Shown: one piece after another, positions 1-64,000 of the stretch
Layout of the letters: each line of letters starts with the position of its first letter
How positions within the stretch are numbered: the first letter of the stretch is position 1
From: Nannobrachium achirus
Taxonomy: Eukaryota > Chordata > Actinopteri > Myctophiformes > Myctophidae
Direction of reading: 5' to 3'
Length of the DNA stretch: 64,000 nt
NCBI GenBank assembly: GCA_963921795.1
Contig: OY997653.1
Coordinates: 61,723,701 to 61,787,700, forward strand
Notes under the pieces: model-generated
Told to the model about the DNA's origin: nothing
The model's database searches: none
What the model saw: the letters and a program-made list of their open reading frames with translations, nothing else
Made by a program: the position numbers and the translations under genes

Positions 1-167
1 CTTGTGTGTAGGTTTATGTATAAAAGATTTTGTAAAAATAAGAAAAAATTATAAGAGGAGTGAATGATGAATAAAACATAGAAAATGCATAATAAAATAT
101 CTTCAAAAGAAAATGTGACTTTATTGTGTGATTTATAATTAGATGTGGGAATTGGCTTAACGACTAA

Positions 168-324
168 AGGGCTGTCCACACCAACCACTGTAACTATAAA
201 AATGTATGGGTACAGACTCAGGATACTGTCTATAACTATAAAGATATTTGATCTAAATCGTTCTAAAGAGTCCTCACCACAACTATAACGACCAACAATA
301 TAGTTATAGTTATAGGACGGCCCT
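168..324. mobile_element. Small inverted-repeat MITE
   Basis: AGGGCTGTCCACACC at the left and TATAGGACGGCCCT at the right, with TATAACTATAA motifs inside. Confidence 0.55.
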
Positions 325-559
325 TAAACGGCCCTTAAACCGGGAGAAAATTAAAAAAGGAGAAAAACTCAAATGAAATAGGCCTATGGCTGCAAGTAGT
401 AATACGCTATCCTGATGCCTGGGATAGACAGTCTGTGAGAATATATGTGGCTACTCTCTCTCAGACTCCTCCAGAATAGCTGTATTTTATTCATTCTAGT
501 TTCACCTACAAACGTGGACTTCAAAAATCATGTAATTCACATCTAGCCTAAACCCTCTA

Positions 560-1410
560 TTAAAACAGACCTACCAAATGGACCCATAAGAGTTTATTTT
601 TGTGTTCAATTGTGCATTCACATGGGGTCTAACTAAGTACATGTGCCTATACTATCACTACTGGCATATACAGTACCTTACATGAAAGATTACTCAAATG
701 GGTCCATTTGGACACTCTCATGGGGTCTAAATTACTTTTTTGTCCAGCATAATGTGATAATTCTACAAGTTTATTTAAGTTTCATTTTAAATGAATTAAT
801 AAAATAAAACTCATAGGCGACACAGATGATGGTGCTTACTTTCACATCATGCATTCTAACTCGCTTATACCTACCGTACATTGTCAAACCATTACTCAAT
901 ATTTCTGGCAAATTTGAAGTGTACTTTGCTGTACACAGAACACCTCTGTGCTAAACTGTTTAGCTTAGCGTCTATAGTCTATAAGGTAAGACTAGACACT
1001 TGTAAATGTGCAAGATGTTTGAAAGTGTATACGCTGCACGTATCATGTCCTAGAAGCTTAAAGTGTCCCTTTGTGCAATACCTGGCCTTTGAGCTTGACT
1101 CTGTGAGCTGACGGGCTTATGGGATGGTCAGTAAACGGCACAAAAATCCAAATAAGCAGAGTTAAGACGGGCACAGACAGAGAAGATTAGACCTGCAGAC
1201 AGTGAAAGGCTTCTTTGCTTAGACCACATTAGAACCATTGACCTAAACATAAACATAAACATTGACCTATAGATACAACCAGCCTTTACTAGAGAACCTG
1301 AACCGACTGCCTGTCTGTCTGGGACCGGAGACATGCTGTGTGTTGAACAATGCCAAAGACACTGGCACAGCTTTTACATTTAATATGGTATACCTGGTTA
1401 TACTATAGAT
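560..1410. other. No gene; fragment of an alternative-core palindrome
   Basis: CAAATGGACCCATAAGAG (567) and CAAATGGGTCCATTTGGACA (697) are remnants of the GTACAAATGGAACC core. The rest is unique sequence. Confidence 0.4.
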
Positions 1411-1800
1411 CAGGGTTCTTCAAAATTTTCAGGCCAAGGACAGCTTAGCTCAGAGAGAGATGAAGCAGGGACCCCCTCCACATATCATGTCACTGTCTGG
1501 CCAAAAACTTATTGGCATAAATCAGGGCTATTGAACACCCTTTACATCTGAGTGTTGGTTAAAATTATATTGAACCAATGCTTGGAGTTAGGAGGTTTCA
1601 GCCCGACAGGAGAGATATATTATTAAATATGTTGCTATTAAAGTTTAGATTCATAGACTTGTTTGACAGCACTATCATCAAGTGTAAAGGATATTTTTTT
1701 TTGTTAACGTGTATTCTCAGAACTTTAACCACTTAAACCGTCATTTAGTAAACGTGACCTTTCACTCTTGGTCTGCTCCAGTCTACACCAAACCTCTTTG
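1411..1800. mobile_element. Decayed CAGGGGTC-family MITE with nested MITE
   Basis: Matches 12894-13350 (AGAGAGAGATGAAGCAGGGA...TTGACAGCACTATCATCA). It is interrupted at about 1493-1605 by the CTGTCAGGCC family in reverse. Confidence 0.65.
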
Positions 1801-3260
1801 CTGAAAGGAATTTAGAGACCTGTGAATTTAGAGGACCAAACATTACACGTGAACAATAACATAATGTGCACATACCACAGGGCAAGCAGAACTATTAACC
1901 CACCAATGGGAGCAAACTTCATCTTTTCTGGAATGCCATCGATACAGTCACCACATTCCTGTCATCCAGCGATGACGAGAACACAGTGAAAAGGAGAAAT
2001 TCTCAGAAATCATTTTCTGGAAAAAAATGCCATACACCAAATTGCACATCTTGATAGTGTGCTGTTTGCTTGGGGAACAATAGGCGTCCTCATTGCCAAA
2101 GGCCACAAACGAACGGAGAGGTCCAACGTGCTTCCCTCAGCCACCTCCACACAGTGAGGTCCAACGTGCTTGCTTCTCTCAGCCACCTCCACACAGTCAA
2201 ATCCTCACTGTTACAATGATTCAACCACATGAAAAGGATCCAATATAAATATGTAGTTAAAATAAAAAAGTGTTAAACCTTGCCAAAGTCAAATCCATGG
2301 CAGTTGGAGTTCACACCACAACTACGGTATAACAACAGGAGTGGTGAAAAAGTTAGATATCGTCGTTGTCGGGTGGAAACCTTGTATGTCCAAAACCGTT
2401 TGTTCTGTATTTATCATTTTAAAAATGATTTAAACTAGTGAAAACAGCCGTTCTACAAGCACACAACGCCTCGCGGTGCGAGGCGTTGTGTGCTTGTAGA
2501 TCGGCTGTTTTCACTACTTTTGTGCGACGGCCTTGTGTGATGAAGCAGGACTTTGCTTTGCGAAAACAATTACAAATTTGAAACTTGGAGATACAAGGTT
2601 TCTGCCTGACAGTGACGATATTATGTGGTTAAGCTTGGTGTGAATGTCATTCTAGGCACGAAAATAGCAGATCTACAAGCTCACAACGAACAAATCGTGA
2701 TATGTAGATCGGCTTGTAGCCGTAGTTAACAAAAGTGTAAGTGTACAAATGTAAGTGTAAGTGTACAAAATGTAATCAAATGGGCCCGTAAGTGTCCATG
2801 TGGTTGCATTTCTCTGAGTTCAAAATGCATAAATTCTCATTTCAACATCAGGATTTCACCGTGCCAGACCGTCATCATCGCCACTTACATCATTTTTTAA
2901 TCATCAAAAAAGGTGGACCTTTCAACGCGGCTCCTGGGCATGAGTTGATAACTTGTATATTTTCCACATTCCTCCGGGTCTTACCTGCGTAATGTGATCC
3001 CCGACCCCAAAGGTCCAAAGCTCCCGGAATATCACTGATTAAGTCATGTGTGTGTTTTCAGCACAAAGCCGTGGCGAGAGGAGAGTAACATGAGATGAGT
3101 CTCGCTGATCCATGCAGCGATAACGTGCTCTGCTCGCTCAGAGAGTCTGTTTCACTGTAAGAGAGAGAAACTATCAGTAGGAACCTTGCATCGGTTTTAT
3201 GCCAGGTCATTTGTTATGATGTACCTGGAGTTATTATGCAGTTTGACTCGTTGGCAGCCT
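1801..3260. other. No gene outside the 2364 MITE
   Basis: A 50-bp tandem duplication (GAGGTCCAACGTGCTT...CCACACAGT) lies at 2118-2205 and a decayed hairpin module at 2662-2717. Nothing else was recognised. Confidence 0.45.
2364..2626. mobile_element. TIR MITE (GTCGTTGTCGGG family) with central hairpin
   Basis: ATATCGTCGTTGTCGGG at the left and CTGACAGTGACGATAT at the right, with a near-perfect hairpin module at 2437-2515. Homologous over its whole length to the copy at 55850. Confidence 0.8.
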
Positions 3261-3582: not shown

Positions 3583-3994
3583 ACCAGGGGTCTTCAACAG
3601 GGGGTCCGGGACCCCTAGGAGGTCCTCAGAGTTACTACAGGGGGTCCTCCAAATCTTCCAATCCTTTTTATATTAACAACTTGAACCCCAGTGTCCATAT
3701 TCTGAGAACTGTAGCCAAAAATAGCTGATCTACAAGCTCACAATGCCTCGCGCTAAAGAGCTTTGGTGTAGAGGGGAAAAAGAGCAGACTAAGTACAGTG
3801 AAAGGTCAAGTTTATTAAGTATTGACGGTTCAAGTGGTTCAATATTTCAAAACACAAATTGACATGAATCCAAAATACACTTATGATTGTGCTGTCAAAC
3901 AATGAAGCTACTGTATATGGAATCTATGAAAAGGTTGTGGGGGTCCCTGCTTCATCTCTCTCTCAAATAAGGGGTCCTTGGCCTGAAAACGTTG
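3583..3994. mobile_element. CAGGGGTCTTCAAC-family MITE
   Basis: CAGGGGTCTTCAACAGGGGG / AACGTTGAAGACCCCTG. Only half of a hairpin module remains at 3716-3757. No TSD is visible. Confidence 0.75.
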
Positions 3995-6355: not shown

Positions 6356-6855
6356 AGGGGCGTCACAAGGGGGAGGAAAGTGGGACTGAGTTACTAACTA
6401 GGGCCCAGTGTGGAGGGGCTCTAGTAGTAACTTTAGCTATTGAAAAATAGCAGATATACAACCAAGCTTGTTGATCTGCTATTTTTGAAAAGTCGTGAAA
6501 ATGTGTGCAAATCTTTGAATATATGTATTTTTTAAGCGGACATTTTGTAACTCAAATTTTGATTCTGGGGGTGTCCCTGGAACTAAATATTTTGAGATGG
6601 GGGTCCGTGGCCAAATACATATCATCTTGGGGGTCCTTGACATGAAAACGTTTGAGCACCACTGACATAGAAACATAGGTTTCTTGCACACATTTTCACA
6701 ATCTTTCAAACATAGCAGATCTACAAGCTCGCAGCGCGGCACTCGGTGCCGCGCTGTGAGCTTGTATATCTGCTATTTTTCAATAGTTGACATTCATGGG
6801 GGGCCCACAGTGAATCCTAGTACCCAGGGCCCAGAATTTGGTGTGACGCTCCTGG
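6356..6855. mobile_element. GGGGCGTCACAAG-family composite MITE
   Basis: AGGGGCGTCACAAG / GTGTGACGCTCCTG, TSD CTGTCTGG/CTGTCAGG (7 of 8). A degenerate hairpin (6440-6490) and a full hairpin (6712-6776) flank the TTGAGCACCACTG segment. Confidence 0.82.
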
Positions 6856-6863: not shown

Positions 6864-7501
6864 AATCGGGTTTGGCCGCGGTTTGAAAGCAAAAGAGAGA
6901 GAAGACGCGTGAATGAAATAGCTCGACTGTGAACATAGAACTAATTTGGTATAATTACAAAAAGGTCTGGCATAAGGTATGTATGGCCAGCTAGAGTCAG
7001 CTAATTCATACAAAGTAATGAGAGTTTATTTCACTGGCCAGGTGGCTCTCATCTCCGTCCAGGGCAGGATTAAATGCCTTGCTCTGCACCCAGAATAGTA
7101 TATTTGTAGAAGTAATACAAGCTGTCCGCTAGCTAGTCCAGTGGTTCTCAAACTTTTTTGATTCAGGACACCGCTGAATTACACTGTTCATTTTTGGAAT
7201 CTTATGTAATATTACTCTAGGTAAATATGCAAATCTTTCCCCCAAAGATACATTAGTCACTGCATGGACACAGATTTTTGGTGAAGAGAGTTGATAGAGT
7301 AGGTGGAAAAATACATCAAGTACAGTGCCACTGAAGTGATATTGATGGATTTCAAATATTATCAAAGTATTCTGCGGCACAAAGTACTCTGTGGGAGAAA
7401 CCCAACAATGACAACCATTCACACAAGCTCACTAGACATTGGAGATCTGTTACTTTTGCCAAATGTTCGCCCCCAGAATAGCGACACTAGGGTTCATGTC
7501 T
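6864..7501. other. No gene; lone MITE end
   Basis: CCAGTGGTTCTCAAACTTTT at 7138 is one end of a CAGTGGTT-family element without a recognisable partner. The rest is unique. Confidence 0.4.
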
Positions 7502-7989: not shown

Positions 7990-8925
7990 CACAGCAGTGT
8001 TGATTTTGACAGCAAGTTTAGATTTAGTTTTAGTCAGTTTCTTTTTAAATAAAATGCTTCAGTCATATTTTAGTGAATCTGAAAGGTTGTAGTTTTAGTC
8101 AACTAAATATCATAAGATTTTAGTCAATTAATTCTACTGTTGATTTTGTCGACTAAAATGTATTTTGGCAGGCCTTGATGGTGTCGTAATGCCTGATTTT
8201 ACACTCGGTTGCGTGCTGAAAATAGCCGAACAAGCTCACGACACGCCTCAGCTTGACGCCTTGTGAGCTTGTAAATCTGCCATTTTCAGAGGTCAACTAA
8301 AATAAAATGACTTGTCTTTTAGTTCCACTGTCTGGATCTCTTCTCCACTAGTCCCTCCCTAACATTTTAGACTAGTTTTTAGTTGTTGACTAAATAGTCT
8401 TTATGCATATACGCCATTTTGTTCTACTTCCGGGTGTCTTTCGACTTTCCTTCACAGGGTGTTACTGATGATACTAATGAAGGCTCTGTTTGATTTATTG
8501 TACAGTGGTTCTTTAATTTCAAGGACCCCCATAACTCTGTACAAATGGAATCAACAAATGGAATCAAATTGACCTTTGCAGGTCCATTTGCTTCCATTTG
8601 TACACTGTCAGAGTTACACACCTGTATGGGGACATTTGAAACCCACTCAAGGACACTTTGAGACCACTGGTGTAGCAGAGTGTTTCCATAGTGAGCCAAC
8701 ATGCACAATATCAGCACCCTGACTCTGTTTGACCAGAATGGAACAGACCCTTCATTAGTATCATTGGTAACACCTGTGAAGGAAGTCGAAAGACACCCGG
8801 AAGTAGAACAAAATGGCGTATATGCATAGAGCCTAATAGTTTTAGTCATCATAGCGTAGTTTTTATTTAGTTTTCGTCAGTAGTCGACGAACATTTTTCG
8901 ACATTGACGAAATCAACACTGCTGC
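7990..8925. mobile_element. CAGTGTTGATTTTG-family MITE, doubly interrupted
   Basis: CAGTGTTGATTTTGACAGC / GACGAAATCAACACTG. It has a degenerate hairpin module (8214-8287) and a second TIR element at 8409-8821 (TACGCCATTTTGTTCTACTT / mirrored, flanked by TATGCATA). That element is itself interrupted at its centre by a CAGTGGTT-type MITE with the alternative core (about 8503-8672). Confidence 0.8.
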
Positions 8926-9348: not shown

Positions 9349-9796
9349 GGGGCGTCACAAGGGGGGGCAGGGGGAAGTGGGACTGAGTAACCAGGGCCCA
9401 AGGTGGAATTATTTTATACTTAAGCTAGTGAAAAAAAAAATTGAAACGTTGTGTGCAAATCTTTGAATACCGGTATATGTATTTTTTAAGCGAACATTTG
9501 TAACTCAAATTCTGCTTCTGGAGGGGTCCCTGGAACTAAATATTTTGAGATGGGGGTCCGTGACCAAATACATATCATTTTGGGGGTCCTTCACATGAAA
9601 AGGTTTGAGCACCACTGATGTAGAAAAATCCAAACATCCAAACATCCCAAAAAAAAAAAAATAATTAAAATAGCAGATCTTCAAGCTCGCAGCTCTTGAG
9701 CTGCAAGCTTGTATTTCTGCTATTTTCAATAGTTAAAGCACAAAAATGTGAGTGAATCCTTGTACTCAGGGCCCAGAATTTGGTGCGACATCCCTG
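9349..9796. mobile_element. GGGGCGTCACAAG-family composite MITE
   Basis: AGGGGCGTCACAAG / GTGCGACATCCCTG. The first hairpin module is lost; the second is 9667-9727 with a short apex. Poly-C and (CA)n follow to 9859. Confidence 0.75.
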
Positions 9797-10088: not shown

Positions 10089-10548
10089 CAGTGTTGTTTT
10101 TGACAGCAAATTTTGTCTTAGTTTTAGTCATAGTCTTTTGAAGAAAATCTCATTTAGTTTTAGTCATAATTTAGTCCCTTGAAAGTTCTAGTTTTAGTCT
10201 AATTTTAGTCGACTAAATATCATAACATTTTATGGCGACTAAATCTACAGTTGATTTAGTCAATGGCCTTGATGCCATCATAATGACTGATTTTACACTT
10301 GGTTGTGTGCTGAAAATAGCCGATCTACAAGCTCACAGCGCGTCGCAGCGCGACGCGTTGTGAGCTTGTAGATCTGCTATTTTCAGCACGCAGCACCTGA
10401 GAGCAACCAAACCCAGTCTCCACCAGTCCCTCCCTAACGTTTTGGTCTAGTTTTTATTTTGTTGACGAAATTGTCAATATATTTAGTATTAGTGTTAGTC
10501 ATCACAGCTTAGTTTTTATTAATTTTTTTCAGTGAAAAAAACGCACTG
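10089..10548. mobile_element. CAGTGTTGTTTTTG-family hAT MITE
   Basis: CAGTGTTGTTTTTGACAGC at the left, AAAAAACGCACTG at the right, perfect TSD GTGTGTTG (10081-10088, 10549-10556). The centre is a full hairpin module at 10307-10389. Confidence 0.92.
10307..10389. repeat. Hairpin module copy, near-perfect palindrome
   Basis: GTGCTGAAAATAGCCGATCT is mirrored by AGATCTGCTATTTTCAGCAC, apex GCGCGTCGCAGCGCGACGCG. Confidence 0.92.
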
Positions 10549-11248: not shown

Positions 11249-11766
11249 TAGGGCATTCACCAAATATTTGAATATTCGAATATCAAAGTCACTATTCAAC
11301 GTTGTTCACCGAAGTCCAATATTCGCTTACTTTAATGTTGTTATTGTTTTCCTCTTTAAAAAAATATATAGTTTATAAAGCTTGGCGAGATACAGTACAG
11401 TAGGAAGTCATAAGAATGAGTTGTCAATGCCCCTGGTGGATGAATTTGTTAATGCTCTATACCAGGGGTTCTCAAACCTTTTTTAGGCCGTGACCCCCAA
11501 AATAAACATATTTGAACTGGGGACCCCCACCCTGACAAGCACTTGGAATTGTAGGTATTACATTTAAAAAATAGCAGATCTACATGCTCACAACGCCTCG
11601 CAACGCGAGGTGTTCTGAGTATGTAGATCGGCTATTTTCACAATGTTCGCCTCTAGTACTTAACATTTGACAGTTTGGCCAGTCCTGTCGAATAGTCGAC
11701 TATTCGAATACTTTGAGGTCGAATAATTCGAACACTAAAAATCCCAATTCTACTATGAATGCCCGA
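11249..11766. mobile_element. ATTCGAATA-rich hAT MITE with nested MITE
   Basis: TAGGGCATTCAC / TGAATGCCCGA, TSD GTGCAGAC/GTGCACAC (7 of 8). A CAGGGGTTCTCAAA-type MITE (about 11463-11690) with a hairpin module (11567-11640) sits in its middle. Confidence 0.8.
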
Positions 11767-11907: not shown

Positions 11908-12434
11908 GTCCAACTGTAGTATTTGGGAGCAGGGATGTCGCACCAAATTCGGGGCCCTGGCCTGGGTACAAGGATCACATTTTGTGCTTTAACTCTAGAA
12001 AAATAGCAGATATACAAGTACAATGTGTGATGTCATCACATTGTGATTTGCAATACAAACCCCAAAATCAATCCTCCAGTTCTAGGCAACACAGAAGAGG
12101 GGGAACTTTTTTTTATTTCCACACAACTCCTCTAAGGTATATTAATGACATAGTTCAATATTGAAAATGGGTGGTCTTCCCCTTTAAAAAATACAAATAT
12201 TCAAAGATTTGCACATATTTTCACGACTTTTCAAAAATAGCAGATCTATATGCTCGCAGCGCAGCACTCGGTGCCGTGCTGTGAGCTTGTATATCTGCTA
12301 TTTTTCAATAGCTAAAGCACAAAATAATAAAGGCCCCCTCCACCTTGGGCCCTAGTAACTCAGTCCCACTCCCCCCCCCCCCCCCCCCCCCCCCCCCTTG
12401 TGACGCCCCTGGTCCAACTGTAGTAGTTGGGATG
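11908..12434 (-). mobile_element. GGGGCGTCACAAG-family MITE flanked by 22-bp direct repeats
   Basis: The element at 11930-12411 (CAGGGATGTCGCACC / TTGTGACGCCCCTG). Immediately outside, GTCCAACTGTAGTATTTGGG + AG (11908-11929) and GTCCAACTGTAGTAGTTGGG + ATG (12412-12434) form a 22/23-bp repeat. It has a partial first and a full second hairpin module (12233-12305) and a poly-C run at 12371. Confidence 0.85.
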
Positions 12435-12893: not shown

Positions 12894-13350
12894 CAGGGGT
12901 CCTCAACATTTCCAGGCCAAGGACCCCTTAGCTGAGAGAGAGATGAAGCAGGGACCCCCCACAACATGTAGATTCCATATAGTTTCATTATTTGACAGCA
13001 CAATCATCAGTGTATTTTGGATTCATATCAATTTGTGTTTTCAGATATTTAACCACTTGAACCGTCAATACATAATAAACTTGACATTTCACTCTGTACT
13101 TAGTCTGCTCTTTTTCCCCTCTAGTACACCAAATCTCTTGCCAAAAATAGCCCAGATCTACAAGCTCACAACTGTGAGCTTGTAGATGCTTGTAGATGTA
13201 GATGGCTAATGTTCTCAGAATATGGATGCTTGGGTTCAAGTTAATATAAAAAGGAGCAAAAAGGTTTCTATCACACAAAGATTTGGAGGACCCCCTGAAG
13301 TTACTCTGAGGACCCCCTAGGCGTCCCGGACCCCCTGTTGAAGACCCTTG
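12894..13350. mobile_element. CAGGGGTCCTCAAC-family hAT MITE
   Basis: CAGGGGTCCTCAAC / GTTGAAGACCCTTG, TSD CTGTGCAC/CTGTACAC (7 of 8). A rearranged hairpin module lies at 13145-13200. Confidence 0.85.
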
Positions 13351-14508: not shown

Positions 14509-14765
14509 ACTTTATCGTGACTTTAGGCGTTGTGAGCATGTAGATCTGCTATTTTCACAATAGAACCATGTTATACCAAATGTAATGTAGCACTGTGATA
14601 TTGGATCATTCCGTCCTTGACAATAAGCAATCCTACTGTTTAGATGCTGTACAGACGCACACATGGAGCAAAAATGATGTTAGAAAAAATGATTTTTTTT
14701 TTTACTTCGACATCCGACTTTCTCTGGTGGGAGTCGACTTGTGTAATGAAGTCGACTCAGTTGAA

Positions 14766-14885: not shown

Positions 14886-15153
14886 ATGAGAGACAGAAGG
14901 AAGGAAGGCTTGAGGAAATGTGGGTTTGTATGGCTCTCAATGACAGCTCAAAGATTTAGCATCATAAAACAAAGAAACATTATGCAACAGCAGCACATGT
15001 TGGTAATCCCTGCAGACACCGTCTGGACGCCCAAACGCTGCGTCTTGATCCTCCGCAGTGAGCTAACACCCAGGGACGTCACAAGGGGGGAGGGAAAGTG
15101 GGACTGAGTTACTAGGGCCCAAGGTGGTTAATTATTTTATACTTTAGCTATTG

Positions 15154-15226
15154 AAAAATAGCAGATATACAAGCTCACAGCGCGGCACCGAGTGCCGCGC
15201 TGCAAGCTTGTAGATCTGCTATTTTT
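15154..15226. repeat. Hairpin module copy
   Basis: AAAAATAGCAGATATACAAG ... CTTGTAGATCTGCTATTTTT, apex GCGCGGCACCGAGTGCCGCG. Confidence 0.9.
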
Positions 15227-15475
15227 GAAAAGTCGTGAAAATGTGTGCAAATCTTTGAATATATGTATTTTTTTAAGCAAACATTTGTAACTCAAATTTT
15301 GCTTCTGGGGTGGTCCCTGGAACTCAATATTTTGAGATGGGGTTCCGTGGCCAAATACATACCATTTTGGGGGTCCTTCACATGAAAAGTTTTGAGCTCC
15401 ACTGACATAGAAACATAGGTTTTTCAAAAAAACTCAGGAGGATTTTGAAATATTCAAAGATTTTCATGATTTTTC

Positions 15476-15548
15476 AAAAATAGCAGATCTACAAGCTCGC
15501 AGCACGGCACTCGGTGCCGCGCTGTGAGCTTGTATATCTGCTATTTTT
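15476..15548. repeat. Hairpin module copy
   Basis: AAAAATAGCAGATCTACAAG ... CTTGTATATCTGCTATTTTT, apex CGGCACTCGGTGCCG, the reverse orientation of the partner copy at 15154. Confidence 0.9.
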
Positions 15549-15668
15549 CAATAGTTAAAGCACAGGGCCCCCGCAGTGAATCCTTGTACCCAGGGGGGGG
15601 GGGCCCAGAATTTGGTGTGACACCCCTGGTAAGACCTCCGTCTTGATCCTCCTTGGTGAGGTAACACC

Positions 15669-18857: not shown

Positions 18858-19259
18858 TAGGGATGCATGGGACGACAAGCGATATTATCGTTTATCGTGA
18901 TAAAAAAACACTCACAATAATGGTATTGTGGAGATTACATTTAGCGTGATATCGTCCTCCGTCATGCACTGGGATCAATTCACCTTTTATTTGCCGAGCT
19001 GCATATCCGGTACCACTTAAACCCTCTATAATTGGTAAAAGGTACTTAAATATACGTACTTGATACAGTATTTTTTTACCACTCTCTATCAAATGTCTTT
19101 GCCAAAAAATTGCAGATCTACAAGCTTGTAGATCTGCTATTTTTTGGCAAATGTTCAGCCCCAGGATAATGGATTTTGATTATTGTGATAATATCGTAAA
19201 TCGTCATTTTTTTTGTCACAATAATCGTGATATGATATTTTCATATCGTCCCATCCCTA
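18858..19259. mobile_element. GGGATGGGACGATA-family hAT MITE
   Basis: TAGGGATGCATGGGACGAC / ATATCGTCCCATCCCTA, TSD TATAGGAC/CATAGGAC (7 of 8). Central 54-bp hairpin module at 19098-19151 extends to TTTGCCAAAAAAT / ATTTTTTGGCAAA. Confidence 0.87.
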
Positions 19260-21839: not shown

Positions 21840-22335
21840 TCATTTTGTTATGCTTTAACTATTGAAAAATAGCAGATATACAAGCTCACACTGCGAGCTT
21901 GTAGATCTGCTATTTTTGAAAAATCGTGAAAATTTGAATTTTGACCCGAAGTGTCTTTTGAATCCTTCTAAGATTCTTTTAAAAACCTATGTTTCTATGT
22001 CAGCAATCTGGCCAGCCATCGTCAAAGAAAAGGTCCTTTTCACTTAACTGGAGCTCAGTTAGTCTGTTCTTGAGACACTACTATGTCAGTGGTTCTCAAA
22101 CCTTTTCATGTGAAGGACCCCCCAAAATGATATTTATTTGGCCACGGACCCCCATCTCAAAATATCTAGTTCCAGGGACCCCACCAGAAGCAAAATCTTA
22201 GTTACAAACGTTCGCTTTGAAAATACATATATTCAAAGATTTGCACACATTCTCACGACTTTTTCAAAAATAGCGGATCTACAAGCTCGAGCTTGTAGAT
22301 CTGCTATTCTTCACTGGTTAAAGCATTCAATAATT
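21840..22335. mobile_element. GGGGCGTCACAAG-family composite, partial
   Basis: Only the two hairpin modules (21863-21920 and 22265-22312, both with shortened apices) and the CAGTGGTTCTCAAACCTTTT middle segment remain; the outer ends are missing. Confidence 0.7.
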
Positions 22336-25152: not shown

Positions 25153-26101
25153 CAGTGTAGATTTTGTCGACTAAAACTATGACAAAAAATGTTCGTCGAC
25201 TGCATTTATTTTACTGACGAAAACTACATAAAAATGAAATAAAAACTAAGCTAGGATGACTAAAAATACCACTAAATATTAGGGATGGTCCGATCAGGTT
25301 TTTTGGAACCGATCACCGAGCACCGATCACAAAAGTTTGATCACCCGATACCGATCAATCACCGATCCGATCAAGTTATTATTTATATATTATTTATACT
25401 TTCTAAATGTTAATGTTTTAACTTTAATTAATTAATTCACTCATGAATTCATTTATATATTTGCCTTATAGTTATTTACTAGCATTACTATGTATTTATT
25501 ATCATAGCAGTAACTAATTATTCCTTCAGCACTGTGGAAATCAATACCCCAAAATGGCCTCAAGTGGGCATACTGAACGGCTGGTTGATCGGATGCATCG
25601 GTGAATTTACCTTTTGATCTAAACCACCGATTATCGCCGATCACGCTTTGATCGACCCGATCCGATCCATTGCCGATTGATCGGTAACATCTCTACTAAA
25701 TATATTGACAATTTTGTCAACAAAATAGAAACTAGACTAAAATGTTAGGGAGGGACTAGTGGAGAAGAGTCATTTTATGTTTGGTTGCTCTCAGGTGTTG
25801 CGTGTTGAAAATAGCAGATCTACAAGCTCACAACGTGTCGCGAGCTTGTAGATCAGCTATTTTCAGCACACAACCAAGTGTAAAATTAGTCATTACGATG
25901 CCATCAATGCCTGCCAAAATACATTTCAGTTGACTAAATCAACTGTAGATTTAGTCGCCTAAAGTCTTATATTTAGTCAACTAAAATTAGACTAAAACCA
26001 AAACTTTTCAGGTGACTAAATTATGACTAAAACTAAAAGACATTTTATTCAAAAGACTATGACTAAAACTAAATCAAAATTTTCTGTCAAAAACAACACT
26101 G
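25153..26101. mobile_element. CAGTGTTGATTTTG-family hAT MITE, interrupted
   Basis: Starts CAGTGTAGATTTTGTCGAC and ends CTGTCAAAAACAACACTG. Perfect TSD TATGATAT (25145-25152, 26102-26109). It is rich in GACTAAAACTAAA motifs and interrupted by 25280-25695. A shortened hairpin module lies at about 25806-25866. Confidence 0.9.
25280..25695. mobile_element. GATCGG-rich hAT-like MITE, nested
   Basis: TAGGGATGGTCCGATCAGG / CGGTAACATCTCTA, perfect TSD CTAAATAT (25272-25279, 25696-25703). Inserted into the 25153-26101 element, so it is younger. Confidence 0.9.
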
Positions 26102-26493: not shown

Positions 26494-26566
26494 AAAAATA
26501 GCAGATATACAAGCTCGCAGCGCGGCACCGAGTGCCGCGCTGCGAGCTTGTAGATCTGCTATTTTT
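26494..26566. repeat. Hairpin module copy
   Basis: AAAAATAGCAGATATACAAG ... CTTGTAGATCTGCTATTTTT with the long GC apex GCGCGGCACCGAGTGCCGCG. Confidence 0.9.
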
Positions 26567-26893: not shown

Positions 26894-26984
26894 CAATAGC
26901 TAAATAATGAAGGCCCCCCCCCCACCTTGGGCCCTAGTAACTCAGTTCCACTTTCCCCCCCAGTGTGACACCCCTGCTCCCAAG

Positions 26985-41800: not shown

Positions 41801-44317
41801 TGAGCCACCGGGGGGGGCTTAATAATATTCTAACTTGAGACTTGTGTTGTTGCCTCTCCAGCCTTCAAGATGAAGCACCGTGTTTATCACTAGGCTGCTG
41901 TATCGACCTGCTGCCACAACTGAAAGTGATTCTCGGCAGTAAATATGAAGAGTAAGTCTATTCCATGTGTTTGAGTATGTGTCATCAGCGACTTCCTATA
42001 CTGTAGCTTAGTTTGTTTTGATGAGTTTCTCTATGAAAACTGTCACTTCTTGTCTGCATATCTCTGTAGGTCACGCCTGACACTGTGGTTCCCCTGACAC
42101 ATCACTGTGACATCACAGGTCTATGGGTTTGTCGCTCTGACATCACTGTGATGTCAGGGGAACCACTCTTAACAGAATGGGTTAGCCGCTCTGACATCAC
42201 GCACTGGCTTCACTGTGATGGAACACTAACAGAAACCCTTTTATGCCCATATATGAAGTTCCCGGATGTCACCAATATTAAGCCCATATCTAACAGGACT
42301 TCATATTGGAAAGCCCATATATGGAGGAAACATCGGCCACATACCACACTAACAGAAACCATATATGGCCAAGACAGCCCATATCTGTGTGGCTGGTTCT
42401 ACAGACAGGGATCTCCAATTTTAAAACCTTTTTTTGGGGTCCCACTAGCTGCTAGCACCTTCTATCCTCACAAAGTCATATGTGAGGATATGACTATGAC
42501 ATCGACACAAAGTCGATGTCATAGACATCATATGACTTTCACATAACAAATAACTGAGTAAGCATGTTTGGGCTCTCTCAGCATATCTCCATATACAGTA
42601 CATGGATCTCCATATATGGGTACCAGGGGTCTCCATATATGGATAACTGGTCCGATATACATCACTGGCCAGATGGCAAAGAATTGGCGCATGTAGCCCT
42701 GAGGCGTCTTACTAGTCTATTGTGTTTTGTTTGTTTGACAGACATATAATTGTTGGTTTACACTGGGTCCAGTCCGTCATCAGGAAATGGTGGCCTGAAC
42801 TTTCCACAAATGGCAAAAGCCTGCAGGACCAAAGCTCAGAGGACAGGTAGGTTGTTTGTTTTATGCTCAGAGGACAGGTAGGTTGTTTGTTTTATGCTCA
42901 GAGGACAGGTAGGTTGTTTGTTTTATGCTCAGAGGACAGGTAGGTTGTTTGTTTTATGCTCAGAGGACAGGTAGTTTGTTTGTTTTATGTTCAAATATCA
43001 CCAAAAGGTCATTGCACAATTTCTCCAAGAAGTTAATGGACCCTAGTGCTGATGGTCTGGCATATTGACAACAACAATAGTAGTTAGATTTTTGAGGTAA
43101 CCAATGGAATCTGTTCATTTAGGCATAGCATGATAATTGCATTGCAAATGCATAGGTAATCCGACTAATTGCATTGATCAGTAAAAGTATTTTATCGTTG
43201 CAATTTAACCACTCAAATCCTAGCATCCTTATTCTGACCAAGTCATTATTTTGCAAAAATAGATGAAAATTCACAAACATTAAAGATCTACAATCTCACA
43301 ATGCAGATTTGAAGTCTAGTCAGAAACAATCTCTGGAGATGATTGATTTTACAAATGAAATTCCACACATCTATGACTTATTAACAGCATAGTGTTTGTT
43401 CAGCAAACATCGAGTTAACATTTTACATTCCTGATTTCAGAAATCTTGAAGTCATGAAGCAGCGACTGAAGGACTTATGGACAGAGGAATCGCAATTGTG
43501 TTTAGTTCCAGGAACTACGGGGGACATAGCCAAGGTGAGAGCGTTACTCCTGTCACGTTATTTATGAAAGCTGTGTGATAACATAGTTCATACAAATTTC
43601 ACATAGTCACCATCAGCTTTTTACCTGGAACCAAGCAGCTAGAAGTCACTCCTGTCAGTGGAAAACATTTGAGTGCTGCCACAATCCAAAACCATTGATG
43701 CATGTCCTGAATGACCTAAAAAACTGCAACATTTTATTTTTTATTTTTTAACATGGATCTGAATGTAAAAGACATGGTTGGTTTTGTAATAGGGATGGGA
43801 CGATAAGCGATATTGTCGTTTATCGCGATAATCGCATCGTGGAGATTTAAGTTATCGTGATATCGTCCTCCATCATGCACTGGAATCAATTCACCTCTTA
43901 TTTGCCGAGCTTCATATCCAGTACCGTTTAAATCCTCTTTGCCAAAAAATAGCCGATCTACAAGCTTGTAGATCGGCAGGATAATGGATTTTGATTATCA
44001 TGATAATATCGCAAATCGCAATTTCTTTTGTCACAATAATCGTGATATAAAATGTTCATATCGTCCCATCCCTATTTTGTAATTGTTACAGATCATTTGT
44101 ATAATTACGTGTAATGTTGTATGGTCTGTACATACAGTACAGTTAATCCTAACACATCATGACAAACGTATAGCTCGCGGCAGCTTTTCAGCATGTGTGT
44201 GCGTGCATGTGCGTGCGGGCCTGCACACACACAATTACATTTTACTGGCTGTAAAGATAACTCTCCCCCCCTTCCTCTTTTTAGGCTATTGAGTCTTACC
44301 TATCACAACTGTGCTGA
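35876..44317 (+). CDS. katnbl1: Katanin p80 subunit B-like 1 (KATNBL1), 9 coding exons
   Basis: Coding exons read from the sequence: 35876-35992, 36107-36144, 36935-37220, 39159-39274, 39372-39422, 41862-41951, 42742-42846, 43441-43534 and 44285-44317. All introns are GT-AG, the phases join without a break, and the product is 309 aa (the human protein is about 304). A basic cluster at about residues 64-76 ([13 protein letters not shown]) looks like a nuclear localisation signal and is followed by MANKENEL, a stretch shared with human KATNBL1. Residues about 148-309 match the con80 domain of katanin p80, including [40 protein letters not shown] and [11 protein letters not shown]. In the known family, this protein binds katanin p60 subunits and modulates microtubule severing; it is nuclear in interphase and moves to spindle poles in mitosis. 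The start is the ATG preceded by a possible acceptor (CCTACAAAG), so an upstream non-coding exon is likely but not placed. Introns 2, 3, 5 and 8 carry MITEs. The exon 7 donor lies in a 31-bp tandem repeat. The next gene, emc7, is on the same strand 3 kb away. Confidence 0.93.
36277..36831. mobile_element. GGGGTGGGCGATAT-family hAT MITE, katnbl1 intron 2
   Basis: TAGGGGTGGGCGATAT / ATATCGCCCACCCCTA, perfect TSD CGCACCAT (36269-36276, 36832-36839). A CAGTGGTCCTCAAA-family MITE (about 36485-36650) is nested at its centre. Confidence 0.9.
37325..38369. mobile_element. GGGCTGACC-type TIR element, katnbl1 intron 3
   Basis: TAGGGCTGACC at the left and GGTCAGCCCTA at the right. Internal GAAGCTTCGTTCGAT-type motifs are mirrored at the right. 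The centre (37866-37920) holds a degraded hairpin module and 38267-38292 a poly-C run. The 8-bp flanks match only partly. Confidence 0.65.
38620..39075. other. GC-rich segment with an imperfect about 110-bp direct repeat, katnbl1 intron 3
   Basis: Contains CCCGCCCCCC, CCCGCCTCCATTGG (GC box next to a CCAAT-like box) and two related segments from 38766 and 38961 that both start TTTTTCAAT and end with CGTG..CCACGT. It could be an internal promoter or an unclassified repeat. Confidence 0.35.
41392..41780. mobile_element. GGGCTGTCACGATTA-family hAT MITE, katnbl1 intron 5
   Basis: TAGGGCTGTCACGATTA / TAATTGTGACAGCCCTA, TSD GTAGTTGA (41384-41391, 41781-41788). Hairpin module at 41618-41674 inside. 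Confidence 0.9.
41618..41674. repeat. Hairpin module copy
   Basis: CAGATCTACAAGCTCACAAC is mirrored by TTGTGAGCTTGTAGATCTG with apex ACGTTGCATCGCTACGCG. Confidence 0.88.
42083..42665. other. katnbl1 intron 6 segment with SRF-type CArG boxes
   Basis: Perfect CCATATATGG palindromes at 42315, 42359, 42610 and 42633 plus near matches. Other parts hold inverted pairs (GTTCCCCTGACA / TGTCAGGGGAACC; CATAGTCATATG pairs). Whether this is a regulatory cluster or an old repeat cannot be decided. Confidence 0.4.
42834..42988 (+). repeat. 31-bp tandem repeat containing the exon 7 splice donor of katnbl1
   Basis: Five 31-bp units begin GCTCAGAGGACAGGTAGGTT. Unit 1 spans the end of exon 7 (42846) and its donor AG|GTAGGT; units 2-5 repeat the same donor inside the intron (the last reads GTAGTT). 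Using any later donor would read GAC AGG TAG, an immediate stop. Confidence 0.9.
43790..44074. mobile_element. GGGATGGGACGATA-family hAT MITE, katnbl1 intron 8
   Basis: TAGGGATGGGACGATA / TATCGTCCCATCCCTA, TSD TTTTGTAA (43782-43789, 44075-44082). The centre holds a minimal 26-bp perfect hairpin module (43952-43977) starting GCCGATCTACAAGC. Confidence 0.9.
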
Positions 44318-50300: not shown

Positions 50301-52277
50301 CACATTTATTTAAATGTAATTATAATTTGGCATCAGGGCTTGTATTCTAGCCTGTCACCAGCCCTGGTAGCAGCCTGCTACATTATGATTGGTTTTGTCA
50401 CTTAGCTTCTCAGTCTGGCAAGCCTCCCACGTATTTCCGAACGTCACCTGTTATGTAGGTGACGTTGTTGCTGATTGGATGTTGTTCCAACGAATCAGAG
50501 TAGGGTTAGGGTAGCTACGTCATCAGCCAGCAAATACACAGTGGTGTATTTGTCCAGAAGCAGTGGTTTCTTGGAGATAGGACCCTTCCCTAGCCAGACT
50601 GAGAAGTGACGTGACAAAACCAATCCACTGAACGTAGCATACTTGTATTCATCAAGCACCTGAGAATCACTGTTGCTGAGCTGTGATTGGTGTAGCAGTG
50701 TTGGCTGAGCTTTGACTAACTGGTCTTGTTTTGGGGGGGTCTGTGATTGGTATAGCAGAGTCAGCTGTGTAGTTTGCTTTAGTAATTCATGTCACAATAA
50801 TCGTGACATGAAATTTTCATATCGTCCCATCCCTTTTCTGCAAAGCCGAACACCAACAATAGATTAAAAAGTCTGTACTTGGAATATGATTTATGTAGAT
50901 ACATTTGTGTTGATTTTTCTCCTAGCTTGGTGTACCAGTTAATGTTGTCATTCTGTCGGCAGACTTGGCATGGATGCTCACGGTCATGCGTTTCCTGTTC
51001 GTCTAATTGCTTGTTTCCATTCCATCCACAGGTTATGATGATGGTTCTTCCACTGCTGATCATTGTCCTGCTTCCCAAGGTTGTCAACACCAATGACCCA
51101 GAGATGAGAAAGGTAAAGACCTCTTTGACTCGGTTATAGACGGCAGAGCAAGAGATGAGGAACGATCCGGAAAGGAAATAGATTTAGAAACAGATGAAGC
51201 ACAAGGTCAGGTGCATGTCAGCTGATGAAAGACCTCCAGAATTTAGACACAAATGTGAAATTGATTGAAAAAACAGAACCGGAGTCAATTGATGGAGATG
51301 CAGATATGAATTCTGACAAGACAGCCAAGGAAAAAGCAGTTAGAATGGAGAAATTATGATAATGTATTTAGGGTTTGTTTACTGGCAAAACATACTTTTA
51401 TGTTGAATAAAAAACAGTATACAGTATTTGTGCAGCCATAAGCCACTCCAACCAATCCCTGAAACGTGTCAACCTCGCAAATTGCTTTACCATGACTGAG
51501 GATTGCAGAATGAATGACTTAACGTTTAATAACTTAGTCTTCAATATCCTCTAACATTGTTATTAAACAGTCTTGATAGTCTTACATTTTAAGTGCTGAT
51601 CTGAGACAATATTGCATACCTTTTTGGTGGAATCCTATAGAGATGTGCCGATTGATCGGTGAGTGATCGGTATCGGTCGATAATGCCTCTATCGGCTTTC
51701 ATCGGTATCGGCTTTGCCTCTATTGGCTTTGCCGATCTACACGCTAGATCAGCTATTTTCACAATATTTATCTGTGGGACTGAATGTAACCTCAGCTTCA
51801 ACTCTTATAAGTTGGATACTAAAGGACCTCAGCATGCAATCTCCTAATGTCTATACTTAATATGCAATGTCAATGTTTTGTAAGAAGAATCATTATATAA
51901 ATGCTGCTACAGTAACACAATAAATAGAAGAATTTATGGATTTGACGCTGTGATCGGGAATATCGGCAGATACTGATTCCAGTTGATCGGTGATCGGCAT
52001 CGGCCCCAAAAATCGCAATCGGAGCATCTCTAGTCTAGAATCCTATATTGCAAGCAAGCACAAGAGTACTTATATAGTGACTACAGTATAGTGATGGTTT
52101 CTTTCTTTACACCCTTCTCTCTAGGAAATGGAACAGTCCATGAACATGCTGAACCCCAACCCCGAGCTGCCCGATGTCTCTGAGTTCATGACCAAACTGT
52201 TCTCTGGTGGCTCAAAGGGCTCCAGCAAGCCTGGCGGCAGCAGCAAGGGAACCAGGCCGGCTGTGAAGCGGAGGTAG
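47370..52277 (+). CDS. emc7: ER membrane protein complex subunit 7 (EMC7), 5 coding exons
   Basis: Coding exons: 47370-47629, 49307-49426, 49527-49665, 51032-51112 and 52125-52277, all GT-AG and in phase, giving 250 aa (human about 242). Residues 1-24 form a signal peptide ([15 protein letters not shown] core). A lumenal beta-sandwich domain at about 51-150 contains [43 protein letters not shown] and [32 protein letters not shown] leads into a single transmembrane helix (about 170-189). The cytosolic tail has [26 protein letters not shown] and a Ser/Gly/Lys-rich basic end. EMC7 is a peripheral lumenal subunit of the EMC, which inserts tail-anchored and multipass membrane proteins at the ER. 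An in-frame GTG at 47346 exists upstream, but the ATG at 47370 directly precedes the signal peptide and is the likely start. Intron 1 contains nested transposons and intron 2 is only 100 bp. The gene is syntenic with katnbl1 and chrm5. Confidence 0.95.
47777..48877. mobile_element. CAGTGGTT-family hAT MITE in emc7 intron 1, interrupted
   Basis: Outer TSD TTCTAAAT (47769-47776, 48878-48885). The right half carries the alternative core GTACAAATATAACCAAATGG. It is interrupted by the long-TIR element 47923-48585. Confidence 0.85.
47923..48585. mobile_element. Mutator-type (MULE-like) MITE with about 238-bp TIRs
   Basis: Inverted arms 47923-48160 and 48349-48585 are about 98% identical and start TAGCCGCAAATTGCAACACT. 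The flanking 9-bp duplication ATTCGTGAG (47914-47922, 48586-48594) and long TIRs are the Mutator pattern. A second inner inverted segment (GAAGCGCTCGT / ACGAGCGCTTCC) is present. It has no coding capacity. Confidence 0.88.
49804..50040. mobile_element. hAT-like MITE in emc7 intron 3
   Basis: TIRs CAGGGCCGGC / ACCGGCCCTG with perfect 8-bp TSD GACCAATA (49796-49803, 50041-50048). Confidence 0.9.
50388..50625. mobile_element. TIR MITE in emc7 intron 3
   Basis: GATTGGTTTTGTCAC...TCAGTCTGGC is mirrored by GCCAGACTGAGAAGTGACG + TGACAAAACCAATC. A fragment of a CATATCGTCCCATCCCT element end follows at 50785-50834. Confidence 0.65.
51638..52037. mobile_element. GATCGG-type hAT-like MITE in emc7 intron 4
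   Basis: TAGAGATGTGCCGATTGATC ... GCATCTCTA with flanking GAATCCTA on both sides (51630-51637; 52038-52045 after a 5-bp extension). A degraded hairpin module lies at 51731-51762. Confidence 0.75.
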
Positions 52278-55849: not shown

Positions 55850-56087
55850 GTCGTTGTCGGGTGGAAACCTTTTGTATTTATCATTTAAAAAACTAATTAA
55901 ACTAGTGAAAACAGCCGATCTACAAGCACACAACGCCTCGCGGTGCGAGGCGTTGTTTGCTTGTAGATCTGCTGTTTTCACTACTTTTGTGCGAAGGCCT
56001 AGTATGATGAAGCAGGGCTTTGCGAAAAAATTTACACATTTGAAACTTGGAGATACAAGGTTTCTGCCCGACAGTGACGATTTACTG
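55850..56087. mobile_element. TIR MITE (GTCGTTGTCGGG family) with central hairpin
   Basis: Left TCGTTGTCGGGTGGAAACCT, right TACAAGGTTTCTGCCCGACA + GTGACGAT. The centre is a hairpin module (55904-55982) with apex GCCTCGCGGTGCGAGGC. The same element lies at 2364. Confidence 0.8.
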
Positions 56088-56405: not shown

Positions 56406-56814
56406 CAGTGGTTCTCAACCTTTTCAGGCCGCGACCCCCAAAATAATCAAATTTGAACTGGGTACCCCCCACCCTGAAAAGCATTAAGAGATGAGGCATT
56501 ACATTTTGCATAACACAGTTCTAATGTGAAAATAGCAGATCTATATGCTCACAACGGGCGTTGTGGGCATATAGATCGGCTATTTTCACAATTTCTGCCT
56601 CTTGACAATTTGGCCAATGTTTTAATTTGTCATTTCAGAGGTATTACAAAGTCCTTAAATTGTCACTTGTCAATTGTCAAACTTCATGTTGGTCTGTTTA
56701 TCGTTGAATGAAAAAACAATGTTGCACATTAAGCTAATTATCTGGGGACCCCCCATAATAATTTGGGGACCCCATGGTCCCAAGGGGTCCCGACCCACAG
56801 GTTGAGAACCACTG
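56406..56814. mobile_element. CAGTGGTTCTCAA-family hAT MITE
   Basis: TIRs CAGTGGTTCTCAACC / GGTTGAGAACCACTG, TSD ATTTATGG at 56398-56405 and 56815-56822. Central hairpin module at 56525-56590. Confidence 0.9.
56525..56590. repeat. Hairpin module copy
   Basis: TGTGAAAATAGCAGATCTAT is mirrored by ATAGATCGGCTATTTTCACA. The stem carries the paired variant ATATGC/GCATAT in place of ACAAGC/GCTTGT. Confidence 0.9.
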
Positions 56815-57349: not shown

Positions 57350-57802
57350 CAGTGGTTCTCAACCTTTTCAGGCCATGACCCGCAAAATAATCATATTTTA
57401 ACTGGGGACCCCCCCACCCTGACAAGCACTAAGAGTTGAGGCATTACATTTTGTATAGTCTCGTGTAGCCAGACGCCGGGAGCATTTGCAAATCGCGGAG
57501 GCAACAGTCTGGCCACGCGAGACTACATTTTGTATAACATGGTTCTGTTGTGAAAATAGTAGATCTACATGCTCACTACGCCTCGCAATGCGAGGCGTAG
57601 TGAGCAATTTCGGCCTCTAATATTTGATGATTTGGTCGATGTTTAATTTGTCATTTCAGAGGTATTAAAAAGTCCTTAAATTGTCACTTTGGAAATGTTG
57701 AGAGAGAAAACAACATTGCATATTAAGTTAATAATCTGGGGACCCCCCAAAATAATTTGGAGACCCCCCTGGGGGTCCTGACCCACAGGTTGAGAACCAC
57801 TG
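57350..57802. mobile_element. CAGTGGTTCTCAA-family hAT MITE
   Basis: TIRs CAGTGGTTCTCAACC / GGTTGAGAACCACTG with perfect TSD TTCTAAAG (57342-57349, 57803-57810). It contains a hairpin module copy (about 57545-57607) and a nested 66-bp TIR element with 13-bp TSD (57458-57523). Confidence 0.9.
57458..57523. mobile_element. 66-bp TIR mini-element with 13-bp TSD
   Basis: Ends GTCTCGTGTAGCCAGAC and the inverse of GTCTGGCCACGCGAGAC. It is flanked on both sides by TACATTTTGTATA (57445-57457 and 57524-57536), a perfect 13-bp duplication. It shares both ends with the 433-bp element at 5381 and looks like an internal-deletion form of it. Confidence 0.88.
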
Positions 57803-61050: not shown

Positions 61051-61402
61051 CGTGCCCCCCTGTAATTATATTTCTTATTATTTAGTTACTAAATAATATA
61101 TATCTAATAAATAATATAATTATTATTTCGTTTCTAAATAATAATAACTTATTATTATTTAGTAATTTGTAGTTTTTATTTTAGTTTCAATTAATTCATT
61201 TTCCTTTTAGTTTTGTATGATGCACTAAGGGCGAGAAGCGCACATGTTGACCAATATGTTTGATATTTACGTTTGATAATGTCACAATTCAACACTTTAA
61301 TAAAAAAATATATTAGCAACATTAAGCCAGGTGTTCCTATTTTGGGCACATTTGTCAAAAAACAAACAAACATTACATTAAATTAAAGAATATTTAAAAA
61401 CA

Positions 61403-61475
61403 AAAAGCAGATCTATAAGCTCACAACACATGACATTGCAACGTGTTGTGACCTTGTAGATGGGCTATTTTCACT
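61403..61475. repeat. Hairpin module copy, decayed
   Basis: AAAAGCAGATCTATAAGCTC is mirrored by GACCTTGTAGATGGGCTATTTTC. The flanks (61056-61559) are AT-rich with C and T runs and show no gene. Confidence 0.65.
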
Positions 61476-61559
61476 ATTTGTGGTACAAAGTAGTGCTTAA
61501 GTAGTAAACATAATACACCCCCCCCCCCTCACTTCCCCCCCCCCCCCCTTTTTTTTTTT

Positions 61560-62233
61560 TACAGATGAAACCCTGCATACAAGTACAACGATGAAAACTG
61601 AAAATGAGCAGTGGCTAAATCCAGGGTTCCCACGGTCATGAAATTCCTGGAAATATTTTGAAATTAGAAAAATATTTTTCCAGTAATGGAAAGGTTTTGG
61701 AATTTATAAAGGGTCCTGGGAGGTCCTGGAAAGAATAGCTATGCATTGTCTTTGGTTATTGATTTTGTTAATACCTCTGAAATGACAAATTAAACATGGG
61801 CCAAATTGTCAAATATTAGAGGCAGAAATTGTGAAAATAGCAGATCTACATGCTCACAACGCCTCGTGTTGCGAGGCGTTGTGAGCATGTAGATCGGCTA
61901 TTTTCACAATAAAACCGTGTTATACAAATTTCCTCAACTCTTAGTGCTCGTCAGGGTGGGGAGGTCCCCAGTTAAAACATGATTATTTCGGGGGTCACGG
62001 CCTGAAAAGGTTGAACCACTGGCATACACTGCCTGTCTTTGGGCATTGCGCATAGGAGTAAGCGACCTGTTACTGAGCTGAATTATCGTTATATAGTCCT
62101 GGAAATCGGGTTAAATATTCTGGAAAAGTTTTGGAAATTAATTGGTAAAGATGTGTGGGAACCCTGTACAGATGAAACCCTGCATACAAGTGCAACGATG
62201 AAAAGTGAAAATGAGCAGCAGTGGCTAGAAATC
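61560..62233. mobile_element. TIR MITE flanked by 62-67 bp direct repeats
   Basis: The element at 61622-62166 has TIRs CAGGGTTCCCAC / GTGGGAACCCTG. It is bounded exactly by a long direct repeat at 61560-61621 and 62167-62233. Both copies start TACAGATGAAACCCTGCATA and end in GTGGCTA(G)AAATC, differing by two substitutions and two small indels. A reversed CAGTGGTT-family fragment with hairpin (61760-62015) is nested inside. A related right-end fragment lies at about 40700-40850. Confidence 0.8.
61828..61910. repeat. Hairpin module copy, near-perfect palindrome
   Basis: ATTGTGAAAATAGCAGATCT is mirrored by AGATCGGCTATTTTCACAAT, with GCCTCGTGTTGCGAGGC at the apex. Confidence 0.9.
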
Positions 62234-63810: not shown

Positions 63811-63827
63811 GATGGTGGGTTATGTTG

Positions 63828-63866
63828 TTACAGTGTGCAGGTTAGTGAAACTTCTTCTGGATCCAT
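63828..63866 (-). other. Short upstream ORF in the chrm5 leader
   Basis: Between the predicted splice acceptor and the receptor ATG, the minus strand carries ATG GAT CCA GAA GAA ... TAA, encoding MDPEEVSLTCTL. It ends 17 bp before the chrm5 start codon, so reinitiation would be needed if it is translated. Its functional status is inference. Confidence 0.45.
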
Positions 63867-63886
63867 GAAGAATGTTCCCCGGTCAC

Positions 63887-63905
63887 CCTGAAATAGAAAG
63901 AAAAC
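63887..63905 (-). promoter_or_regulatory. Predicted 3' splice site of the chrm5 coding exon
   Basis: On the minus strand a pyrimidine-rich tract (TTTTCTTTCTATTTCAG) ends in AG at 63889-63888, with exon sequence GGTGACCGGGG following. This fits the usual muscarinic receptor layout of non-coding 5' exons spliced to one coding exon. The upstream exon is outside the window. Confidence 0.6.
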
Positions 63906-64000
63906 AACAATGATTTAAAGTAGCCTACCACCAGACCTCATTTCCCTATCAAATGTACACGCAAGCAAGCAAGCATCCGCACACACGCACACACACACAC

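Follow-up and report, generated by a model that had tools for sequence, protein, structure and literature searches.

How does one and the same hairpin come to lie inside transposon families whose ends are unlike each other? The question was raised by a stretch of 64,000 nucleotides from Nannobrachium achirus (C16:61723701-61787700; hereafter the window), part of an assembly of 1,658,514,493 bases in 564 contigs. An initial annotation had reported about 30 copies of a palindrome in the window, as one module present in families with different ends. Counted from arm matches, the window holds about 32 hairpin copies, with both arms recognised in 21 (at most four mismatches per arm), and all fourteen positions quoted in that annotation fall on copies. 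The module is indeed one homologous hairpin with a common mismatch at its core position 7. In our judgement, it is somewhat probable that the hairpin is a core domain of common descent, which was exchanged among non-autonomous transposon families by nesting and recombination and was amplified in each family separately.

The 18-base arm AATAGCMGATCTACAAGC was matched 50 times in the window with up to three mismatches; 0.06 matches were expected, and none of 100 shuffles reached 50. For the whole assembly, the exact 14-base arm GCMGATCTACAAGC resulted in 178,839 + 179,093 = 357,932 matches (216 per Mb), and the same arm read backward resulted in none. A random sample of 20 regions of 10 kb (200 kb, positions picked blind) contained 50 exact arms, or 250 per Mb, and 45 hairpins; therefore, the hairpin is not peculiar to the window. 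Its full form is a palindromic core of 67 bases with a recurrent A/C mismatch at position 7. The copy at 10307 with its feet (83 bases), folded as single-stranded DNA, forms a stem of about 38-40 bp with -46.2 kcal/mol, which was equalled by 0 of 200 shuffles. Many copies are centrally shortened but still palindromic (34 bases at 19108 and in L053, for example), and others have lost a foot or an arm.

A covariance model was built from 17 copies; this check and the genome search had both been proposed in the initial annotation, and both bore out the hairpin. The model recovered the window copies having both arms, with scores up to 101 bits, and its list does not include the single arms at 3720, 12002, and 14536 or the remnants at 37864 and 51729. 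A few of its matches, such as those at 18586-18661, 27910-27986, and 46452-46525, were rejected as copies and are read as fold only. The copies and remnants of the window, with the host family and the method by which they were recognised, where recorded, are the following.

2435..2517, hairpin of family G (unit 2361-2617); arm search and covariance model
2655..2735, degenerate hairpin, host not recognised (K); arm search and covariance model
3712..3756, plus strand, left arm alone, family E (about 3586-4005); arm search
6438..6491, shortened hairpin 1 of the B element 6356-6855; covariance model
6703..6785, hairpin 2 of the B element 6356-6855; covariance model
7439..7499, plus strand, decayed right arm and flank homologous to E and F (X)
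8213..8292, hairpin of family C (about 7994-8934); covariance model
9661..9732, hairpin of family B (about 9348-9793); the left site (within 9375-9510) is without a hairpin, lost or never filled
10307..10389, hairpin of family C (10089-10548, target duplication GTGTGTTG); covariance model and fold
11562..11644, hairpin of family A; covariance model
12228..12310, hairpin of family B (about 11931-12411), whose partner arm lies at 12002
13138..13208, hairpin of family E (12895-13351, target duplication 7/8), right arm duplicated
14523..14563, minus strand, lone arm and family A flank
15149..15231, hairpin 1 of the B element 15072-15629; covariance model
15471..15553, hairpin 2 of the B element 15072-15629; covariance model
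18929..19194, plus strand, F interior homologous to the E interior 12967-13247; score 89, null 28.3, 0/200 shuffles
19100..19149, hairpin with central deletion, family F; covariance model
21860..21922, shortened hairpin in a B-type interior; covariance model
22261..22316, shortened hairpin in a B-type interior; covariance model
25802..25869, hairpin of family C (25153-26101, target duplication TATGATAT); covariance model
26489..26571, hairpin 1 of the B element 26421-26976 (target duplication CTCCCAAG); covariance model
26816..26898, hairpin 2 of the B element 26421-26976; covariance model
35119..35177, hairpin of family I (about 34857-35773); covariance model
37860..37930, remnant in the GGGCTGACC element (37325-38368, target duplication 7/8); arm search
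41605..41679, hairpin without right foot, family H (41392-41780, target duplication GTAGTTGA); covariance model
43940..43982, shortened hairpin of family F (43790-44074, target duplication TTTTGTAA); covariance model
51729..51765, remnant in a GATCGG-type element (51638-52037, target duplication GAATCCTA)
55902..55984, hairpin of family G (55849-56079); covariance model and fold
56523..56592, hairpin of family A (56406-56814, target duplication ATTTATGG); covariance model
57547..57606, hairpin without right foot, family A (57350-57802, target duplication TTCTAAAG); covariance model
61395..61477, hairpin in element J (about 61320-61560); covariance model
61828..61910, minus strand, hairpin of family A with the core of L017_2559 in opposite orientation relative to the family flanks

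The window hosts end in CAGTGGTTCTCAAC (family A), CAGGGGCGTCACAA (B), CAGTGTTGATTTTG (C), and CAGGGGTCTTCAAC (E), all unlike each other, and the ends of F (TAGGGATGGGACGA), G (CGTCGTTGTCGGG), H (TAGGGCTGTCACGA), and I (CAATGGTGTAAAG) are further unlike types. Remnants of the hairpin lie in hosts N (TAGGGCTGACC) and D2 (TAGAGATGTGCCGAT), and a hairpin was also found in element J. The initial annotation missed two hosts, the element at about 61320-61560 and the GGGCTGACC element with its remnant at 37864, and the GATCGG type that it listed proved weak, with one remnant at 51729-51760 and no match in the closely similar copies at 25280-25693 and 54739-55161. The families had also been credited with their own 8-bp target-site duplications (TSDs). 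This is the case for 11 of 20 hairpin-bearing window elements, with 8/8 or 7/8 identical bases in A, B, C, E, F, H, N, and D2, and not for the remaining tested elements, which match at 4-6 of 8 bases and include other copies of B, C, E, and F. No 8-bp TSD was recognised in the window for G (6/8 and 5/8) or I (4/8). The chance level, taken as the best of 121 offsets, was 7/8 or 8/8 in 141 of 3000 random pairs (8/8 in 19, 7/8 in 122).

The search was extended to 96 unique hairpins (98 located, two duplicates dropped) within 354 kb of sequence. Other loci add family Q (CAGGGGTGGGCAAC; two independent TSDs, 8/8; 10 of 14 end bases paired), family R (CAGGGCTACTCAAC; TSD 8/8; 13 of 14 paired), and family T (CAGGGACGTGCA; TSD 8/8; 11 of 14 paired). 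L012-L015 have one common TSD and are probably one duplicated insertion, so family Q was counted as two insertions. A loose TSD search provided a pair for 32 of the 96 hairpins but also at 31 of 200 random anchors; only matches with recognisable ends were kept, a stricter choice that had no control of its own. The hairpin of the T copy at L050:7915-7976 departs from the usual arm pair (CCAACCTCCAAGC / GCTTGGAGGTC), for the most part on both sides. CAG/TAG-type ends together with 8-bp TSDs were found in A, B, C, E, F, H, Q, R, and T. Judged by their 8-bp TSDs, most recognised hosts appear to be of the hAT type, and at least G is not recognisably so.

The host elements measure about 280-1,330 bp. 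The position of the hairpin had been described as at or near the centre, which holds loosely; among TSD-bearing hosts its relative position ranges from 0.2 to 0.79, and B holds two mirrored hairpins. Elements with two hairpins are L039:905-2236 and the B elements. Family G is a miniature inverted-repeat transposable element (MITE), with a unit of 172-261 bp in nine copies having both ends, two of which lie inside one host, U, and are non-independent; its flanks read 'atat' on the left in 7/9 and on the right in 8/9.

Common descent of the core is indicated by its mismatch. The multi-copy families except B, O, and R have GCAGATC in one arm and GCCGATC in the other, a difference at position 7. 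The arms differ at this position in 43 of the 96 hairpins. The next most discordant of the outer 19 positions, position 11 (29/96), reflects the GATATAC arm of B, and nearer the loop the arms are discordant at position 21 in 33/87. Among 63 non-B hairpins, the pair is A/C in 33, A/A in 13, and C/C in 6; the A/C pair was seen in families A, C, E, F, G, H, I, and Q and in unassigned copies. Because the mismatch is common to many families, it argues for a single origin of the hairpin. Hairpins with exact arms in the whole assembly comprise 35,040 A/C against 6,964 C/C pairs, an A/C excess that is not proven at genome scale, as random arm pairing would require about 44,000 A/A by our arithmetic. 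Gene-conversion-like equalising of the arms was rejected as the only force, since the mismatch persists across many families.

The core can be aligned across the families compared while their ends differ, and the interior is more conserved than the terminal repeats. Between family representatives, 197 sites had changed on both arms (77.5 expected if independent) and 370 on one arm only. The alignment of 17 copies contains two-sided changes in 51 cells versus 23.6 in shuffled sets, none of 500 reaching that value.

A shared, transposase-derived interior had been named in the initial annotation as what would speak against a module moving between families. Sequence in common beyond the hairpin was found for E, F, and X, for J and S, and for B and I, and nesting explains G in hosts U and V; for other pairs, the common part is the hairpin with a few bases. 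Outside the masked hairpins, matches remain among E, F, X (7130-7500), J, and S (4790-5000), and A, E, and X also have ends that match. The interiors of E and F align over about 270 bases (score 89, null 28.3 +/- 4.5, z 13, 0/200), and the alignment stops short of the element ends. J and S align over 49 bases (z 10), X is similar to E and F on both sides (z 4-8), and B and I have their left 21 bases in common (p 0.00015). The between-family similarity of flanks beyond the core reached z 5.8 (0/200) for all families and z 5.3 without E and F. These flank tests mean that the common piece exceeds the hairpin in some families, which cannot be claimed for others.

Nested copies of G were found in U (CAGGGTTCCCCAAT) and V (CAGGGGTCGGCAAC), different hosts that each have their own TSD of 8/8 or 7/8. 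At 61836 and in L017_2559, one and the same 67-base core lies in opposite orientations relative to the family A flanks, as expected of an inversion in place. This flip is not polarisable; against the copy at 11570, the arm base and the loop disagree on the inverted copy.

The hairpins lie mostly in recurrent surroundings. When clustered by flanks of more than 40 bases, 79 of 96 have a flank type in common with at least one other hairpin, and the flank type largely tracks the end type. In the random sample, 18 of 20 near-perfect hairpins (0-2 arm differences, position 7 left out) belong to recurrent flank types. Ten of its 45 hairpins are unclustered; seven of them have at least six arm differences, and two are near-perfect, one of these with its own ends (T). 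At the feet, the inverted complementarity continues for several more bases in A, C, F, G, and I, where the letters are family-specific, and hardly so in B, E, and J.

We also searched for sites with joined flanks. The scan of the 93 hairpins with sufficient flank, across the 354 kb, resulted in nine places where the junction is spanned, seven of which are partial deletions or partial matches. For family C, a search of the whole genome found 15 places with 0-30 bases between the exact flanks, and 14 of the 15 keep pieces of the hairpin or its feet. Filled C sites with the same exact flanks number two in 354 kb, both within the window. Because 14 of 15 short junctions have remnants, the hairpin was very probably present in family C before the family spread, with losses beginning inside the hairpin. 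No clean empty site was found among the nine spanned junctions (two ambiguous) and the 15 short C junctions (one ambiguous).

The exchange of a common core is argued for because the same core occurs in A, B, C, E, F, H, Q, R, and T with different ends and TSDs of 8/8 or 7/8. The core would have had a single origin, as a palindrome of about 67 bp in which one position was mismatched, and its entry into each family would have been rare, at or near the founding of the family. One route may be the nesting of a hairpin-bearing element in another, as seen for G. By a second, putative route, recombination or template switching at the palindrome would copy the hairpin with a variable length of flank. 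Gap repair and template switching are generally known routes. Each family would then multiply via its own ends, presumably with a transposase of its own and with the hairpin kept in a fixed position, and the similarity of the arms may be upheld by arm-to-arm correction or by selection for folding.

Several results weigh against this explanation. No transfer between families was caught in the act, and copying gives no simple account of the family-specific inverted feet. The flank similarity becomes weak once E, F, B, and I are left out (z 2.3; 6/200 null sets as high), and outside E/F/X, J/S, and B/I the families clearly share only the hairpin and a few bases. Three sites may be empty. L030:333-418 (family I) is without a clear hairpin, by an empty site or by a deletion between short repeats; window positions 9375-9510, the left site of a B copy, are likewise without a clear hairpin; and C3:75056095 is the one of the 15 short C junctions without a remnant. 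In the 17-copy alignment, pairs with two-sided changes (14 versus 11.6 shuffled, 62/500) and further pair types (29 versus 29.9 shuffled, 372/500) were not in excess. Within families, 29 of 32 changes are one-sided, which, together with the covariation between families, would mean that palindromy was kept during family divergence and decays after copies land.

A tentative alternative is that the hairpin is a structure-dependent cis element that helps unrelated non-autonomous elements multiply, so that the families capturing it won, and is not a passenger; recombination at the extruded hairpin may exchange it between families and flip it in place. A host or transposase factor may, for example, bind or open it, and the recurrent mismatch would then belong to the signal. 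The presence of the hairpin in very abundant families is suggestive of such help in multiplication and is not a test of it.

It is equally doubtful that the hairpin is or was itself mobile, for instance as a folded single strand that is excised or replicated, inserts without target duplication, and prefers palindromic centres. The initial annotation had offered a self-mobile palindrome landing in the centres of MITEs, and this idea fared poorly. No direct repeat was found at the hairpin edge at any common offset, and a target duplication at the hairpin was rejected for this reason. Exact 6-base repeats near the feet are in excess (21/94 hairpins, null 2.5%); judged by eye, this excess is the TTGAAA of family B, which was inherited. 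The inverted, family-specific feet in A, C, F, G, and I are what a preference for palindromic centres would give. The very high copy number (357,932 exact arms), the 67-base core in both orientations against family A flanks, and the three possibly empty sites also favour mobility, but the few solitary near-perfect copies, with 18/20 in recurrent flanks and 7/10 unclustered copies having at least six differences, do not. Neither do the flank similarity beyond the hairpin in some families, the hairpin pieces retained at 14/15 short C junctions, and the want of a clean empty site.

Less probable again is the descent of all hosts from a single ancestral element, with retention of its interior and with divergence or replacement of its ends. 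The hAT-like 8-bp TSDs of most recognised hosts, the matching ends of A, E, and X, the interior of about 270 bp common to E and F, and the common A/C mismatch would fit such an ancestor. However, the E/F alignment does not extend to the ends, G has another kind of target flank, and outside the named pairs the interior in common amounts to a few bases. The least probable account, by which a few small hairpin-bearing MITEs inserted into other transposons with no other transfer, agrees with G in U, V, and other contexts and with the imperfect inverted repeat TTAACCACTTGAACC that bounds the E interior (by eye), but no inner element ends were recognised in A, C, H, and Q, which were not searched systematically for them, and in these families the hairpin is part of the family's own interior and has fixed flanks.

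Other features of the window were recorded. Several CAGTGGTT-type elements contain another hairpin (ACAAATGGAACCAAATGGACCC and its mirror), which is unrelated to the first and is possibly a second common core; it lies at the following sites.

8554-8614, 16700-16761, 18600-18660, 33778-33836, 36566-36624, 48725-48793, second hairpin

Large self-complementary elements without the hairpin lie at 7502-7970, 23023-23574, 45188-45492, and 47923-48585, and a long tandem array with a unit of roughly 60 bases at 53080-54340. The minus strand holds a UnaL2-type LINE (long interspersed element) 3' tail at 28366-28420 and a muscarinic acetylcholine receptor open frame at 62248-63810, whose best match is human M5; both features indicate a vertebrate, most likely a teleost.

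It has long been asked how new MITE families originate and why a few of them become enormously numerous. One marked hairpin in many families with different ends makes exchange between families directly testable, with the core traceable as a tag. The mismatched base gives the orientation of the core, and copy number can be compared between similar families with and without the hairpin. The results suggest that the interior and the ends of DNA transposons may have separate histories, which bears on the classification of repeats.

We found no description of this hairpin in the open-access literature; papers containing its 11-base arm there, judged by their titles, include none on repeats. Apart from the LINE tail, Rfam at gathering thresholds found nothing in the window. 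The exact arm had 0 matches in viral contigs and 11 single matches in prokaryote genomes, near the approximately 15 expected by our arithmetic.

Among known systems, SINE (short interspersed element) families with the central domains CORE, V, and Deu combine one internal domain with different ends; unlike the hosts described here, they are retroelements, without a palindrome, and multiply by another mechanism. Fold-back MITEs of teleost fish, such as Angel, are small palindromic non-autonomous elements in which the whole element is the palindrome, whereas here one hairpin is common to many families. In their 8-bp TSDs and CAG/TAG-type ends, families A, B, C, E, F, H, Q, R, and T resemble hAT non-autonomous elements, and to our knowledge ordinary hAT MITE families do not have a central hairpin in common.

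The closest described precedent is that of the CMITE families of Acropora corals, which have different terminal repeats and a 75-base internal region in common, of unknown origin (PMC2872659). That region is more conserved between the families than their ends, and the elements are piggyBac-like, with TTAA duplications, a size of about 100 bp, and an estimated 1,600 or so copies in A. millepora (PMC2872659). The words palindrom, hairpin, secondary structure, fold, and stem are absent from the main text of the paper (PMC2872659). As in CMITEs so described, the families studied here have an interior in common that is more conserved than their differing ends. Unlike CMITEs, with their piggyBac-type TTAA duplication and CCYT ends, the hosts have CAG/TAG ends and 8-bp TSDs; the common part is a hairpin with 357,932 exact arms in the assembly, and the hosts, of about 280-1,330 bp, are mostly of the hAT type. 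As the type of ends and TSDs differs, the hairpin system works like CMITEs but is not one of them.

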